Assembly: GCA_020628865.1 (NCBI GenBank)
Contig: JAHDEJ010000025.1
Location: 1 to 48,209 of the forward strand
Direction: 5' to 3'
Source: Acidimicrobiales bacterium
GTDB taxonomy: Bacteria; Actinomycetota; Acidimicrobiia; Acidimicrobiales; SHLQ01
DNA: 48,209 bases
The notes under the pieces were generated by a model, which saw nothing but the letters and a program-made list of their open reading frames with translations, was not told where the DNA came from and searched no databases. How positions within the stretch are numbered: position 1 is the stretch's first letter; every line of letters starts with the position of its first letter. Shown here piece after piece: positions 8,084 to 48,209 of the stretch. Made by a program: the position numbers and the translations under genes.

Positions 8084-9052
8084 ATGCAGCGGCTCCGATC
8101 AAACAGTCCCTGCTGGTGCGGGAGCGGCGGAAAGTTCAAGCGCTGCCATGGCGACCGCCGCCAGCTGCAACGGCGACCCGTCCCTCTTGGCGAGGTCAGT
8201 CCACACCGGTCGGTCCCCGACCACATCACTCGTCCCGACTACGCCGTCAACGGGCAGGTCACGACGCCAAGGACAGCCCAGATCCACGACGCCGAATCAC
8301 TTCGCCGCCTTCGCACGGCATGTCGAGTGGCCGCAGAGATCCTGAAACTCACCGGCGCTGCGGTCGCTCCGGGCGTGACGACCGACGAACTCGACGCAAT
8401 CGCCCATGCGGCGTACATCGACCGAAACGCCTACCCGAGCGACCTCGGCTACAACGGGTTCCGCAAGTCGATCTGCACCTCGGTCAACGGCGTCATCTGC
8501 CACGGGATCCCCGACAGCCGAGCACTCGAACCCGGCGACATCATCAACATCGACGTGACCGCCTACATCGACGGCATGCACGGGGACACCTCGGCAACCT
8601 TTGCCGTCGGCACGATCGACGAACCCACCCGGGCGCTCGTCGAGGCGACCCGTGCGGCAACGCTCGCCGGGATCGCTGCGGTCCGGCCGGGCGAATCGAT
8701 GCAACGCATCGGTCGAGCGGTCGAGGAGGTCGCCCATGCGCACGGCTTCTCCGTGGTCCGCGAATACGGCGGGCATGGAATCGGCGCCACCTTCCACGCC
8801 GAACCCCACGTGTACCACCACGTCGAACGAACCGACGGCGCGACGGCACTGCCCAACATGAGCTTCACCGTCGAACCGATGCTGCTCTCGGGTGGCCCAG
8901 CGTTCACCCAGGCCGACGACGGCTGGACCGAGCACACGGACGACGCAATGCCCTCAGCCCAGTTCGAACACACCGTGGTCGTGACCGGCGACGGCGCCGA
9001 AATCCTCACGGTCACAGCCGACGGGACGAGTGCCGTCGACAGCGCCGCCTGA
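8084..9052 (+). CDS. map: Type I methionine aminopeptidase with N-terminal SEC-C zinc motif
   Basis: Removes the initiator methionine from nascent proteins; cytoplasmic dinuclear metalloenzyme. The first 25 residues carry a SEC-C motif (Cys10, Cys12, Cys21, His22 in CWCGSGGKFKRCHG) thought to bind zinc and help ribosome contact. The catalytic domain holds all five metal ligands: two Asp in NIDVTAYIDGMHGDTS, His in GGHGIGATFH, Glu in FTVEPM and Glu in QFEHTVVVT. Substrate-pocket YNGFRKSICTSVN is standard. There is no Shine-Dalgarno; the -10-like TAGACT 7 nt upstream suggests a leaderless mRNA. Other map copies probably exist elsewhere in the genome. Confidence 0.95.
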   Translation: MQRLRSNSPCWCGSGGKFKRCHGDRRQLQRRPVPLGEVSPHRSVPDHITRPDYAVNGQVTTPRTAQIHDAESLRRLRTACRVAAEILKLTGAAVAPGVTTDELDAIAHAAYIDRNAYPSDLGYNGFRKSICTSVNGVICHGIPDSRALEPGDIINIDVTAYIDGMHGDTSATFAVGTIDEPTRALVEATRAATLAGIAAVRPGESMQRIGRAVEEVAHAHGFSVVREYGGHGIGATFHAEPHVYHHVERTDGATALPNMSFTVEPMLLSGGPAFTQADDGWTEHTDDAMPSAQFEHTVVVTGDGAEILTVTADGTSAVDSAA

Positions 9053-9084
9053 GACGGACAGACCGTGGGCGAAGACAGCCGGGA

Positions 9085-9747
9085 TCAGCGGAGCGCCGAC
9101 GCGAGGAACTCGGTCGTCTGACGCCAGGCGACGGCCGCCGCCTCACCGTCGTAGCCGGGTCGTCCGGTCTCGGCGAAGCCGTCGACGGTTCCCTCGTGAT
9201 GTTCGAAGCGGAAATCTCGCTTGGCCATCTGCAGGCTCAGTCCGAGGTCAGCGACCTCCAGATCGGAGACGTTCTCGTCCGTCTCCGCCCAGTGGCAGAG
9301 GTAGCTCGCGTTCGAGCCGTTCATCGGGATCGACTGCGCCCCGTAGTAGGTGACGACCGTGCTCACCTCGTCCGTGAACCGGGCCGACAGCCACAGCGCC
9401 CAGGAGGCACCGGGGCCGTAGCCCAGCACGCCGATCGGTGCGGACGGATCAGCGGAGGCCCGCCGAAGGATGCTGACACTCGACTGAATGAGCGATGCGA
9501 CGACGTTCATGTCGGTTTCGGCGAGCGCGGCGAACGCCGCGTCGGCGTCCTCGTGGGTTGCGCCGTCGAGCAGGTCCGGCGCAAGGACGGTGAAGCCGGC
9601 GTCGGAGAGCTCGTTCGCGGTGTCCTTGGCCGCCCGGTTCAGGCCCCAGAACGAATGCAGCAGGAGAACGCCCGGGCCGGGCCCCTCGCTCGGCGAGATG
9701 AAGTAGCCGGTTCCCGACGGTGGCGGCGTACGTCCCTGGTCAGCCAT
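9085..9747 (-). CDS. Dienelactone hydrolase-fold protein lacking the usual catalytic residues
   Basis: 220-residue alpha/beta hydrolase of the DLH family (PF01738), shown by SEGPGPGVLLLHSFWGLN, the cap helix and the C-terminal GRPGYDGEAA. The nucleophile elbow, GxCxGG in active enzymes, reads GYGPGAS, with Gly111 where Cys (or Ser) should be. The His of GHxF is replaced by Asp189 (GTVDGF), and the supporting Glu near residue 32 is Ser. Only Asp157 seems kept. It therefore looks like a non-hydrolytic relative, perhaps a ligand binder. The start at 9747 overlaps the end of the DUF1737 gene by 8 bp, so the two are co-transcribed. Confidence 0.85.
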   Translation of the reverse strand: MADQGRTPPPSGTGYFISPSEGPGPGVLLLHSFWGLNRAAKDTANELSDAGFTVLAPDLLDGATHEDADAAFAALAETDMNVVASLIQSSVSILRRASADPSAPIGVLGYGPGASWALWLSARFTDEVSTVVTYYGAQSIPMNGSNASYLCHWAETDENVSDLEVADLGLSLQMAKRDFRFEHHEGTVDGFAETGRPGYDGEAAAVAWRQTTEFLASALR

Positions 9748-9937
9748 CGGCGTCCGGCAGCACCACGGCCTGAGCCACGTAGGTCGTCGTGCCATCCCAC
9801 GTGAGCGCCGGCGAACCGTGCAGCACGTAGCCCTCTTCCAACGCCTGGGAAACCCGCTCGCAGAAGGCGGCGGTGTCTGGCCCGGTGAGCAGGCGATATC
9901 GCAGTCGGCCCTCGCCCTGCACTGTGTCCTGAGTCAT
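9740..9937 (-). CDS. DUF1737 domain protein
   Basis: 65-residue cytoplasmic protein matching DUF1737 (PF08410): LRYRLLTGPDTAAFCERVSQ, then LEEGYVLHGSPALTWDG and a final YVAQAVVLP. The family is of unknown function and is usually a single short beta-alpha-beta unit. It is the first gene of a two-gene operon with the DLH-fold protein, whose start it overlaps. It is divergent from the rhodanese gene across 84 bp. Confidence 0.85.
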   Translation of the reverse strand: MTQDTVQGEGRLRYRLLTGPDTAAFCERVSQALEEGYVLHGSPALTWDGTTTYVAQAVVLPDADG

Positions 9938-10021
9938 GACCTCAACCTATCTGCAGCCTCGCCAGCTCCCCAGACCCGCCAATAGACTCGACCTCCAGCC
10001 CACCGTCGATCGGAGCTCACC

Positions 10022-10417
10022 ATGACCTACGCCGGAGATCTCACCCCCGCCGAGGCACACGACATGCTCATGGCCGATCCGAGCGCCGTGCTCGTCGACG
10101 TCCGGACCGCCGCCGAGTGGACCTTCGTGGGCCGGCCAGTCGTGGATGCTGCCCGGTTCGTCGAATGGACGAGCTGGCCGACGGGAGCCCCGAACCCCGC
10201 GTTCGTCGCTGACGCCGGCAACGGCCTCGACTCCGACACACCGATCATTCTGCTGTGCCGCTCGGGCGTGCGGTCGGTCGCCGCCGCCCATGCGCTGACC
10301 GCCGCCGGCCACTCCGCCGTCTACAACGTGCTCGAGGGCTTCGAAGGCGACCACGACGCCGACGACCACCGGACCGGTGGATGGAAGGGAGCAGGCCTTC
10401 CATGGACACAACGATGA
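10022..10417 (+). CDS. Rhodanese-like domain protein
   Basis: 131-residue single-domain sulfurtransferase. Features are VLVDVRTAAEWTFVG, the CH2A-type motif, and the active-site loop LLCRSGVRS with the persulfide-carrying cysteine. It ends in the usual GWKGAGLPW. Rhodanese genes sit next to metZ in many actinobacteria (for example the mycobacterial pair), and here they overlap, so it probably supplies or relays sulfide for homocysteine formation. The stop overlaps the start region of metZ (ATGA at 10414-10417). Confidence 0.92.
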   Translation: MTYAGDLTPAEAHDMLMADPSAVLVDVRTAAEWTFVGRPVVDAARFVEWTSWPTGAPNPAFVADAGNGLDSDTPIILLCRSGVRSVAAAHALTAAGHSAVYNVLEGFEGDHDADDHRTGGWKGAGLPWTQR

Positions 10418-11604
10418 ACCCGGACGAGCAAGACCCGACCGCCGAATCCACGATCCTCATTCGCGGCGGCCTGACCCGAACCGCGTTCGACGAGACGGCC
10501 GAGGCCATCTTCCCGACCTCCGGCTACGTCTACGGAACCGCCGCCGAGGCAGAGGCGGCGTTCAAGGGCGAGACCGAACGCTTCATCTACAGCAGATACG
10601 GCAACCCGACCGTCGCCATGTTCGAGGAACGACTCCGGCTCCTCGAAGGCGCAGAAGCCTGTATGGCGACCGCATCGGGCATGTCGGCGATCTTCGCTTC
10701 GCTCGCATGCCTCGTGAAGGCGGGAGATCGGGTCGTCGCATCGCGGGCACTGTTCGGCTCGTGCAGCGTGATCGTCACCGAGATCCTGCCCCGGCTCGGC
10801 GTCGAGACGGAGCTCGTCGACGGGACCGACCCCGACGCATGGGAACGGGCCCTGTCGCGCCCCGTCGCCGCAACGTTCCTCGAGAGCCCCTCCAACCCCG
10901 GCCTGCAGATCATCGACCTCGCCCACGTTGCCGAGCTGACGCACGCCGCCGGTGGCCTGCTCATCGTCGACAACGTCTTCGCATCCCCAGTCCTGCAGAA
11001 GCCGCTGCGTTTCGGAGCGGACGTCGTCGTCTACTCCGCCACCAAACACATCGACGGGCAGGGACGGGTTCTGGGCGGCGCCGTGCTGTCGACCCAGCAG
11101 TACGTCGACGACCACCTGATGCCATTCCTTCGCCACACCGGCCCGAGCCTCTCGCCATTCAATGCGTGGACGCTCGTGAAGGGGATGGAGACGCTGCGCC
11201 TCCGCGTCGACGCATCGTCAGCCTCGGCGCATTCGATCGCTTCCAAGCTCGAGGGCCACCCGAAGCTCGCCTCCGTCCTCTACCCAGCGCTTCCGTCCCA
11301 CCCCCAACACGAGCTCGCCATGCGGCAGATGCAGTCCGGCGGCACCGTGCTCGCCGTCACCATCGACGGCGAGAAGGACGAGACGTTCCGCTTTCTGGAC
11401 GCGCTTCGGCTCTTCGACATCTCGAACAACCTCGGCGACTCGAAGAGCCTCGTCACCCACCCGGCGACCACAACACACCGCCGCATCGGACCGGAAGGCC
11501 GGGCCGCCGCTGGCATCGGCGAGTCGATGGTGCGCCTCTCCATCGGACTCGAGGATGCCGGGGAGCTGTTGGACGACCTGGTGCGCGCGCTCGACGCAGT
11601 CTGA
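10402..11604 (+). CDS. metZ: O-succinylhomoserine sulfhydrylase
   Basis: PLP enzyme of the Cys/Met metabolism family that makes homocysteine from an O-acylhomoserine and sulfide. Visible are the N-terminal region TAEAIFPTSGYVYGTAAEAE, RYGNPTVAMFEERL, the PLP-stacking region ATASGMSAIFASL, the aspartate in LIVDNVFASP and the Schiff-base lysine in VYSATKHIDGQGRVLGG. It ends with RLSIGLEDAGELLDDL. Length about 400 is typical. ATG 10402 follows a GAAGGGA box, but ATG 10414 overlaps the rhodanese stop as ATGA and could be the true start. MetB/MetY relatives are less likely given the neighbouring rhodanese. Confidence 0.9.
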   Translation: MDTTMNPDEQDPTAESTILIRGGLTRTAFDETAEAIFPTSGYVYGTAAEAEAAFKGETERFIYSRYGNPTVAMFEERLRLLEGAEACMATASGMSAIFASLACLVKAGDRVVASRALFGSCSVIVTEILPRLGVETELVDGTDPDAWERALSRPVAATFLESPSNPGLQIIDLAHVAELTHAAGGLLIVDNVFASPVLQKPLRFGADVVVYSATKHIDGQGRVLGGAVLSTQQYVDDHLMPFLRHTGPSLSPFNAWTLVKGMETLRLRVDASSASAHSIASKLEGHPKLASVLYPALPSHPQHELAMRQMQSGGTVLAVTIDGEKDETFRFLDALRLFDISNNLGDSKSLVTHPATTTHRRIGPEGRAAAGIGESMVRLSIGLEDAGELLDDLVRALDAV

Positions 11605-11672
11605 GCCACATCGGTTTGTGAACGGCGATCGATGATCTGTGCAATCGGCCCGGTCCGATCTACGATCAGGAG

Positions 11673-12137
11673 ATGGCCGACAATCAGTTGACGCAAGCGA
11701 CGTACGACCGTCTCAAGGAAGAACACGACGATCTGACGACGCGGGGACGCATCGACATCGCCCGCAAGATCGAGGTTGCCCGAGAGCTCGGCGACCTCTC
11801 CGAGAACGGCGACTATCACGCCGCCAAAGAAGAGCAGGGCAAGATGGAGGGGCGCATCATGTTCCTCGCCAAGATGCTCGAGACGGCCGAGATCGTCGAA
11901 GGCGGCGGCACCGATGTGGTCGGCGCCGGCAGCGTCGTCGAACTGCGATACGAGGGCGACGACGACACCGAGAAGTACCTCGTCGGTTCGATCGAGGAAC
12001 GACGCGAGGGCCTCGACAACCTCTCCCCCGGGTCGCCACTCGGCGAGGCGCTGATGGGTGCGAGCGCCGGCGACACCGTCTCGTTCGAGACCCCGGCTGG
12101 AGGCTCGCTCAGCGTCGAGGTCGTGTCCGTCGAGTAG
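11673..12137 (+). CDS. greA: Transcription elongation factor GreA
   Basis: 154-residue factor that enters the RNA polymerase secondary channel and stimulates cleavage of backtracked RNA. The N-terminal coiled coil includes LKEEHDDLTTRGR and the acidic tip region ARELGDLSENGDYHAAKEEQ, whose Asp and Glu residues coordinate the polymerase magnesium. The C-terminal FKBP-like domain ends with SPLGEALMGASAGDTVSFET. A -10-like TACGAT (11661-11666) lies 6 nt before the ATG, so a leaderless mRNA is likely; the AGGAG directly abutting the ATG is too close to serve as a ribosome site. Confidence 0.97.
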   Translation: MADNQLTQATYDRLKEEHDDLTTRGRIDIARKIEVARELGDLSENGDYHAAKEEQGKMEGRIMFLAKMLETAEIVEGGGTDVVGAGSVVELRYEGDDDTEKYLVGSIEERREGLDNLSPGSPLGEALMGASAGDTVSFETPAGGSLSVEVVSVE

Positions 12138-47282: not shown

Positions 47283-48209
47283 TCACCCAGGCGCATCGAG
47301 GCCGAAGATGAACGATTCCTCGGCGGCGAGCACCGTTCGAATCGTCTCGGCCATCCGGAATCCATGGCCTTCGCCATCGAAGAGGTGGTAGGTCACCTCG
47401 ATTCCCTTGGCCTCGAGTGCGGCCACGATCGCCTCGGCCTGGTTCGGCGGCACGATCATGTCTTCGGTCCCCTGCAGCACCAGCATCGGTGCGGCGATGC
47501 CGTCGATGTGTGTCAGCGGCGATCGTTCGGTGTAAATGGCGGCCGCCTCCGGCCACGGACCAACGAGGCGATCGAGGTACCGGGCTTCGAACTTGTGGGT
47601 GTCGGCGGCCAGCGCGGCGAGGTCTCCGACGCCGTAGCGGCTGATGCCGCCGCTGAAGACGTCGTGGTGGGCGAGGGCGTTGAGCACCGTGAGACCGCCG
47701 GCGCTGCCGCCGGCGATCACCATGCGATTCGGGTCGACGCGGCCGGTGTCTGCCAGATGCTGCGCCGCCGCCACACAATCCTCGACATCGAGCACCCCCC
47801 AGCCGTCGTGCAGCGCGTGGCGGAACGTCCGGCCGTAGAGCGTGGAGCCCCTGTAGTCGACATCCGCCACCGCCACGCCCCGGCTGGTCCAGAACCGGAC
47901 GGTGAGGTTCAGCATTCGCCGGGCTGCACCGGTCGGCCCACCGTGCACCATGACGAGCAGCGGCGGCGGCTCCGTGGACGAGTGGTCCGGGTTCGCGGGT
48001 GCGTAGAACAGCGTGTGCGCTTCGGCGTCACCGACCGGAAAGGTGAGGTGTTCCGGATCCGGGAACCAATCGTTGCTGAGGCCGAGGTCGCGCGGTTGGG
48101 AAATGCGGGTCGCCGTGGTGCCATCGTGCACCCAGACGGCGGACTCCTCGTGAAAGCTCGACGCCACGTAGGCCACACCGTCACCATGCGCTCGCAGGCT
48201 GCCGACCGC
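47283..48209 (-). CDS. S9 prolyl oligopeptidase-family hydrolase (5' end outside window)
   Basis: 309 codons, open to the right edge, with the C-terminal alpha/beta hydrolase domain of an acylaminoacyl/dipeptidyl peptidase. PPLLVMVHGGPTGAARRMLN, SRGVAVADVDYRGSTLYGR, VIAGGSAGGLTVLNAL (nucleophile Ser), LVLQGTEDMIVPPNQAEA (Asp) and LFDGEGHGFR (His) are intact. The preceding residues (HDGTTATRISQPRDLG) look like the tail of the beta-propeller domain. Cuts short peptides or acyl-amino acids; localisation unknown. Confidence 0.92.
   Translation of the reverse strand, partial: AVGSLRAHGDGVAYVASSFHEESAVWVHDGTTATRISQPRDLGLSNDWFPDPEHLTFPVGDAEAHTLFYAPANPDHSSTEPPPLLVMVHGGPTGAARRMLNLTVRFWTSRGVAVADVDYRGSTLYGRTFRHALHDGWGVLDVEDCVAAAQHLADTGRVDPNRMVIAGGSAGGLTVLNALAHHDVFSGGISRYGVGDLAALAADTHKFEARYLDRLVGPWPEAAAIYTERSPLTHIDGIAAPMLVLQGTEDMIVPPNQAEAIVAALEAKGIEVTYHLFDGEGHGFRMAETIRTVLAAEESFIFGLDAPG

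Follow-up and report, generated by a model that had tools for sequence, protein, structure and literature searches.

Alpha/beta hydrolases without catalytic function are already known, the NDRG proteins being an example, and in the chemistry of the dienelactone hydrolase (DLH) family the acyl-enzyme cannot form once the nucleophile is missing. A Cys nucleophile is described as the mark of DLH in a passage of PMC8533429, and the DLH positions 36, 123 and 202 are also given in part of PMC7034887. The domain DUF1737 appears in print in a CIII-like stretch and in the NanS-p esterases of Stx phages (passages of PMC1838920 and PMC10462455); NanS-p combines DUF1737 with an esterase domain in a single fusion protein (PMC10462455). 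It is also found in an expression table of PMC10653896. The DUF1737 passages of these three papers (PMC1838920, PMC10462455, PMC10653896) make no mention of MetZ.

Here, we describe a DLH-family gene lying next to a stand-alone DUF1737 gene on contig JAHDEJ010000025.1 of an Acidimicrobiales bacterium; the whole stretch of 48,209 nt that was analysed is designated the window. Read on the minus strand from 9747 to 9085, the gene comprises 220 codons and a stop in an uninterrupted frame. The encoded protein matches the Pfam DLH profile PF01738 (E 5.5e-30; 105 bits, cut-off 21), and at E 1e-5 this profile matches all 74 members of the alignment, i.e. the window protein and 73 relatives. The genome of the window encodes four other full-length DLH-family proteins, all of which possess both Cys and His. 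A weaker match to the DLH profile (37.7 bits) is located at window positions 47340-47783 on the minus strand within a frame of 841 amino acids, and perhaps represents part of a larger alpha/beta-hydrolase. The features of the locus are as follows:

9085-9747, minus strand: gene of the putative DLH-fold pseudohydrolase, 220 amino acids (open frame, PF01738, AlphaFold2 model, match to 9bld_C)
9181-9183, minus strand: codon of D189, at the position of the triad His (alignment to DLH)
9223-9264, minus strand: codons 162-175 (helix 162-174), including the clade-specific G169-L170 (row comparison)
9277-9279, minus strand: codon of D157, the retained triad Asp (alignment; Asp throughout the sampled rows)
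9415-9417, minus strand: codon of G111, at the position of the catalytic nucleophile (alignment; Gly in all 11 members of the genus; strand-helix elbow)
9652-9654, minus strand: codon of S32, at the position of DLH Glu36 (alignment to DLH)
9740-9937, minus strand: DUF1737 gene, 65 amino acids, upstream of the putative pseudohydrolase gene (PF08410)
9938-10021, no strand: divergent intergenic region of 84 nt between the DUF1737-hydrolase pair and rhodanese-MetZ (ORF coordinates)
10022-10417, plus strand: rhodanese-like gene (PF00581, 44.1 bits, cut-off 22.2)
10396-11604, plus strand: MetZ, O-succinylhomoserine sulfhydrylase, start approximate (TIGR01325, NF005870)

The first-pass annotation had assigned the protein to the DLH fold by its fold markers, which is borne out by the PF01738 score and by structural comparison. 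An AlphaFold2 model calculated from the window protein and its 73 relatives has a mean pLDDT of 94.1 and a pTM of 0.90. When the model was compared with known structures by Foldseek and VIA-align, DLH structures ranked at the top, and chain C of 9bld superimposes with a Z-score of 29.6 and an rmsd of 1.9 over 213 residues at 26% identity. RIB26 from Tetrahymena doublet microtubules (PDB 8g2z, chain 3D), a case of the DLH fold within a structural assembly, also ranks in the top ten of the structural comparison. The predicted structure puts G111 precisely at the junction of strand 105-110 and helix 112-123, which corresponds to the nucleophile elbow, and D157 and D189 directly follow strands 148-156 and 179-188, respectively.

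Active-site residues were assigned from phmmer alignments to the Pseudomonas DLH chains 4u2c and 4u2g, which are C123S variants. In these alignments, G111 falls on residue 123 (Ser in both chains), S32 on Glu36, D189 on His202 and D157 on the triad Asp of DLH. In DLH, Glu36 acts on the Cys. The triad positions of the window protein thus read Gly-Asp-Asp instead of Ser-Asp-His. All positions that define the DLH active site had previously been read as changed; Gly111, Asp189 and Ser32 are correct by alignment, but the triad Asp is kept as D157. According to the alignment and the secondary structure of the model, there appears to be no Ser or Cys that could consistently substitute for G111.

Relatives were collected to follow these positions through the family. 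When 198 genomes of the order were searched, 47 close matches (E ≤1e-35) emerged, clearly set apart from a further 98 of lower significance (E 3e-25 to 6e-16); all 47 close and 20 of the 98 weaker matches were sampled for the tree. To these were added the 11 genomes of the genus to which the window belongs, the family of genome G071 (matches in 37 of 39 genomes) and 75 loci from named genomes (entitled, for example, uncultured Acidimicrobiales bacterium). The latter were obtained with the alignment as query; scanning the contigs of the named genomes with the single protein gave no match. The pattern of the 75-locus scan demands Ser at position 32, and relatives carrying another residue there come from the other genome search only. 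After dropping one locus with a broken frame (L216), one short match (L218) and duplicates, the tree contained 133 different proteins and was left unrooted. L216 (JAOSKI010000034.1, from a Microthrixaceae bin) breaks its frame near the nucleophile column, reflecting either an assembly error or real decay.

A branch with support of 100/100 divides the tree into 20 Cys-type rows on one side and 113 rows, including that of the window protein, on the other. The sampled weaker matches are ordinary Cys-type DLHs with Glu-Cys-Asp-His in 20/20. The 113 rows make up a Ser-type set, whose usual motif GFSMGAS ... D ... HWF provides Ser-Asp-His and whose hosts are Acidimicrobiia plus single bins of Chloroflexota, Gemmatimonadota and Rhodothermota. 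The triad Asp is present in all 113 of these rows and in the 20 sampled Cys-type rows. In place of Glu36, the 113 rows invariably carry Ser, Ala or Gly, as compared to Glu in 20/20 sampled Cys-type rows, and the position of the DLH Cys is Ser, or changed further, throughout the set. Because these differences are common to all 113 rows, the changes of Glu and Cys, as read from the alignment, are older traits of the Ser-type set. The nucleophile change had been annotated as Cys to Gly111: the Gly is indeed there, but relatives are of the Ser type and the event in the genus is Ser to Gly. Likewise, Ser32 was named correctly, but counting it as a loss does not hold, with Glu being absent from the entire set and its absence not peculiar to this gene.

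Within the genus, the nucleophile position is Gly in 11/11 members. Position 189 is Asp in seven, His in three and Ala in one of them, i.e. His is lost in 8/11. Of the six proteins closest to those of the genus, one has an intact triad, four are without Ser and two without His (one lacks both). Outside the 17-row clade of the window protein and a separate clade of seven rows with Gly at the nucleophile position, Ser-Asp-His is kept in 86 of 89 rows; the three exceptions have Ala for Ser (two rows) or Gln for His (one row). At least five changes of the intact triad are required on the tree. Since L016, a protein with intact triad, sits among the losers, we read the tree as four losses plus one regain; if no regain is allowed, the losses number about eight. 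By this reading, the triad is lost at least four times in the Ser-type set. Joining all 19 Gly rows in a single clade was rejected (p-AU 0.0014, for a group defined only once the tree was known). The seven-row Gly clade (L164, L180, L191, L196, L198, L204, L217) occurs in Acidimicrobiia and a Nitriliruptorales bin, and its steady Gly-Met-Gly-Gly elbow together with an HGF motif suggests another non-hydrolytic or altered DLH-like protein. A transporter-like ORF, judged by eye, adjoins at least five of its seven members. L048 and L103 (genomes G107 and G222) carry Ala at the nucleophile position and keep the His, representing another loss that occurred separately on the tree. For the Ser-type relatives and for the seven-row Gly clade, the clusters of neighbouring genes revealed no common partner that would explain function; many of these clusters are antisense ORFs in high-GC DNA.

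The frame is uninterrupted in all 11 genus genomes. The pair L009/L076 (95% identical) exhibits a dN of 0.029 and a dS of 0.386, i.e. a dN/dS of 0.075, and the 22 listed pairs within the genus range from 0.05 to 0.20, values that are rough since 21 of the 22 have a dS above 1. Seven pairs of relatives with intact triad gave 0.08-0.26; two of the nine comparison pairs, L048/L103 (0.12) and L016/L017 (0.17), were left out of this range as they contain lost-triad proteins. These ratios indicate that the gene is under purifying selection, so that catalytic residues are lost in a homologue kept by selection, the hallmark of a pseudoenzyme. The earlier designation as a pseudoenzyme is therefore supported, at the level of sequence, by Gly in 11/11 genus members, the apparent lack of a consistent Ser/Cys substitute and purifying selection.

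The clade of the window protein is also distinguished by residues outside of the active site. G169 and L170 are present in 17/17 of its rows and F179 and R180 in 16/17 and 15/17, respectively, and all four are found in 0/89 comparison rows. G190 (15/17 versus 0/89) is shared with the seven-row Gly clade. L016, which belongs to the 17-row clade, possesses G169-L170 in spite of its intact Ser-Asp-His, and for this reason these two residues alone do not mean that a protein is non-catalytic. The new surface may have preceded full loss of the triad.

The DUF1737 gene upstream of the hydrolase gene scores 73.8 bits with PF08410 (cut-off 24), covering profile positions 3-51 of 53, and its end overlaps the start of the hydrolase gene by 8 nt, confirming the overlap noted before. 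A sequence search of the PDB with the DUF1737 protein (E up to 10) listed 13 sequences, of which the top ones were repeat proteins matched over ~22 residues, with no single stretch passing alone. The window MetZ is an equivalog match to TIGR01325 with 570.7 bits (cut-off 510.05), and it scores 625.1 with NF005870 (cut-off 618). An Rfam search of positions 9000-12000 for a riboswitch yielded none at E up to 0.1. On the other side of the pair, a methionyl aminopeptidase of type I that carries a SEC-C motif at its N-terminus is encoded at 8084-9052 on the plus strand, convergent with the hydrolase gene; it was matched in one of 10 other genus loci (L131).

In all 11 genus genomes DUF1737 adjoins the hydrolase gene on the same strand, the matched edges lying between 12 nt of overlap and 96 nt apart and the hydrolases being 71-95% identical to that of the window. 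Upstream and in divergent orientation, a rhodanese gene is found in 9/11 and MetZ in 10/11 genomes including the window; L135 has neither beside the pair. Above the Pfam cut-off, the order sample (198 genomes) contained 13 DUF1737 loci, and the phylum sample (396 genomes) contributed nine further ones. MetZ is located in the 1.5-kb flanks of DUF1737 at 10/13 and 8/9 of these loci, respectively, or 18/22 together (L082-L094, L220-L228), and at 13 of the 17 loci outside the genus. There, three gene orders are encountered: DUF1737 may precede MetZ, follow it or be transcribed divergently from rhodanese-MetZ. A hydrolase of this kind is present in the 1.5-kb flanks at only one of these 13 MetZ-linked loci, L089, which is identical to the L055 locus. 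L055 derives from another family of the order, keeps the Ser, has Gln for His and is convergent to rhodanese-MetZ-DUF1737; among the 102 rows of the Ser-type set outside the genus, it is the only one with DUF1737 nearby. G077, a genome of the same family as the window, has MetZ, rhodanese and DUF1737, but the hydrolase is absent, and no orthologue was detected at E 1e-30 in the eight genomes of the family outside the genus. The hydrolase thus looks like a later addition to a DUF1737-MetZ locus. DUF1737 also matches 31 plasmid records. Six stretches of these were inspected, and in the five with annotation, which stem from other bacteria and have an incomplete gene table, no MetZ is listed within 2.5 kb. 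Because of these five stretches, the link between DUF1737 and MetZ is not universal, but it is strong in part of the Actinomycetota, and it suggests that stand-alone DUF1737 serves methionine synthesis in the sampled members of this phylum. The proposal of a two-component unit with DUF1737 consequently stands in part: the pair occurs in 11/11 genus genomes, but elsewhere in the phylum DUF1737 accompanies MetZ, not the hydrolase. We regard the DUF1737-hydrolase pair as an arrangement at the level of the genus that is embedded in a MetZ-linked locus, and a physical partnership as putative.

Taken together, we assign a probability of roughly 0.6 to the reading that the window protein is a non-hydrolytic binding protein, a value covering both of its steps jointly. 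That the protein does without esterase chemistry of the DLH kind is very probable from its residues, and granted this, it is likely that it acts by binding. The retention of His in 3/11 genus members and of Asp in all of them is a counterpoint to a non-hydrolytic protein. Hydrolysis might persist with a shifted nucleophile, for which S32 and S115 (both in 11/11 genus members) and S112 (in 6/11) would be available. We consider this highly improbable: S112 is Pro in the window protein and four others, S32 and S115 are equally present in relatives with Ser111 (57/67 and 67/67 other relatives, 65 of the same 67 retaining Ser111) and hence are no replacements, and only residue 111 is predicted to sit at the strand-helix turn. 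A pocket that still catalyses a non-nucleophilic reaction, using D157, D189 (or His) and H31/H152, deserves somewhat more attention. There is a precedent in the carboxylesterase-like cyclases of plants, which have reportedly lost esterase activity and gained a new reaction, and D157, H31 and H152 are each conserved in 11/11 genus members. Nevertheless, such a reaction is unlikely, as position 189 being D, H or A inside one genus is odd for a catalytic residue, and H31 and H152 are kept in 65/67 and 66/67 relatives, mostly with a triad, and are thus not new. Decay into a pseudogene, with which the loss of catalytic residues alone would fit, can hardly be reconciled with the open frame in 11/11 genomes and a dN/dS of 0.05-0.20, and we give it almost no weight.

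The favoured non-hydrolytic binding protein would have arisen when a DLH-family ancestor with Ser-Asp-His lost its nucleophile in the genus (Ser to Gly), and mostly the His as well, while the folded protein was retained for binding. The vacated pocket could hold a small acyl or ester compound as ligand; alternatively, a protein partner might be bound via the face formed by residues 162-182. The pseudohydrolase would then serve the sulfur-assimilation/methionine locus, with DUF1737 acting as the more direct accessory of MetZ. This service is proposed because the gene overlaps DUF1737 and lies divergent from rhodanese and MetZ; for a non-hydrolytic protein that binds, we hold a role tied to the MetZ locus to be a tentative proposition with slightly less than even odds. 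The protein may also bind something without any functional tie to DUF1737 or MetZ, the adjacency being an accident of one genus, which is a possible outcome, if a less favoured one. Adjacency to DUF1737 changes only twice on the tree among 113 rows, no DUF1737 was found near 14 of the 26 lost-triad rows, and no such hydrolase exists at 12/13 DUF1737-MetZ loci outside the genus. Lost triads are found in 12/12 DUF1737-adjacent rows as opposed to 14/101 non-adjacent ones, a comparison that comprises only two independent pairs on the tree and for which adjacency was scored with tblastn on flanks that differed in length and in some cases stopped at a contig end. An accident is argued against by the same-strand adjacency being maintained in 11/11 genus genomes despite hydrolase identities down to 71%, and by a second, separate lineage (L055, G071), in which rhodanese, MetZ and DUF1737 occur together with a His-less relative. 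A more specific version, which we put forward as a long shot, is that the dead esterase senses O-succinylhomoserine, the substrate of MetZ and itself an ester, without cutting it, and together with DUF1737 tunes MetZ or sulfur delivery by the rhodanese. If this were true, lone DUF1737 would generally assist MetZ in part of the Actinomycetota, and one genus would have supplemented it with a dead esterase as ligand-binding subunit.

For the gene itself, a real and conserved pseudohydrolase with a corrected history (Ser to Gly in the genus) is well supported as regards the probable loss of hydrolysis. It provides a densely sampled case of repeated triad loss within a section of a common family of bacterial hydrolases, including a genus that has fixed the nucleophile loss and in which selection still maintains the protein. 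The Pfam label "dienelactone hydrolase" would mislead for such genes. The association of stand-alone DUF1737 with MetZ, seen in several actinobacterial families, gives a concrete and testable clue to a domain whose function is unknown.

In the open-access literature, we found no paper on a DLH pseudoenzyme, on a serine-nucleophile or GXSXG DLH, or on a serine DLH of Acidimicrobiia; non-catalytic hydrolases are a known kind, and no report of the present variant was found in the literature searched. In comparison with NanS-p, the DUF1737 of the window stands alone, beside a putatively dead hydrolase of another family and next to MetZ. The seven-row Gly clade resembles the window protein in having Gly at the nucleophile position and Gly190 (within the HGF motif), but it keeps the His in 7/7, is without G169-L170 and had no DUF1737 in the flanks covered. 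To the Ser-type set, whose members are putative hydrolases, the window protein is 31-95% identical (alignment of 74), with S115, W119, Y135, H152, D157 and F191 being conserved; it differs by Gly for Ser111, Asp for His189 and Gly for W190, and G169-L170 are particular to its clade. Compared with dienelactone hydrolase proper (carboxymethylenebutenolidase; Pseudomonas 1din/1zi8, thermostable 9bld), it lacks the Cys nucleophile, Glu36 and the His, but shares the predicted fold, the length and the triad Asp.
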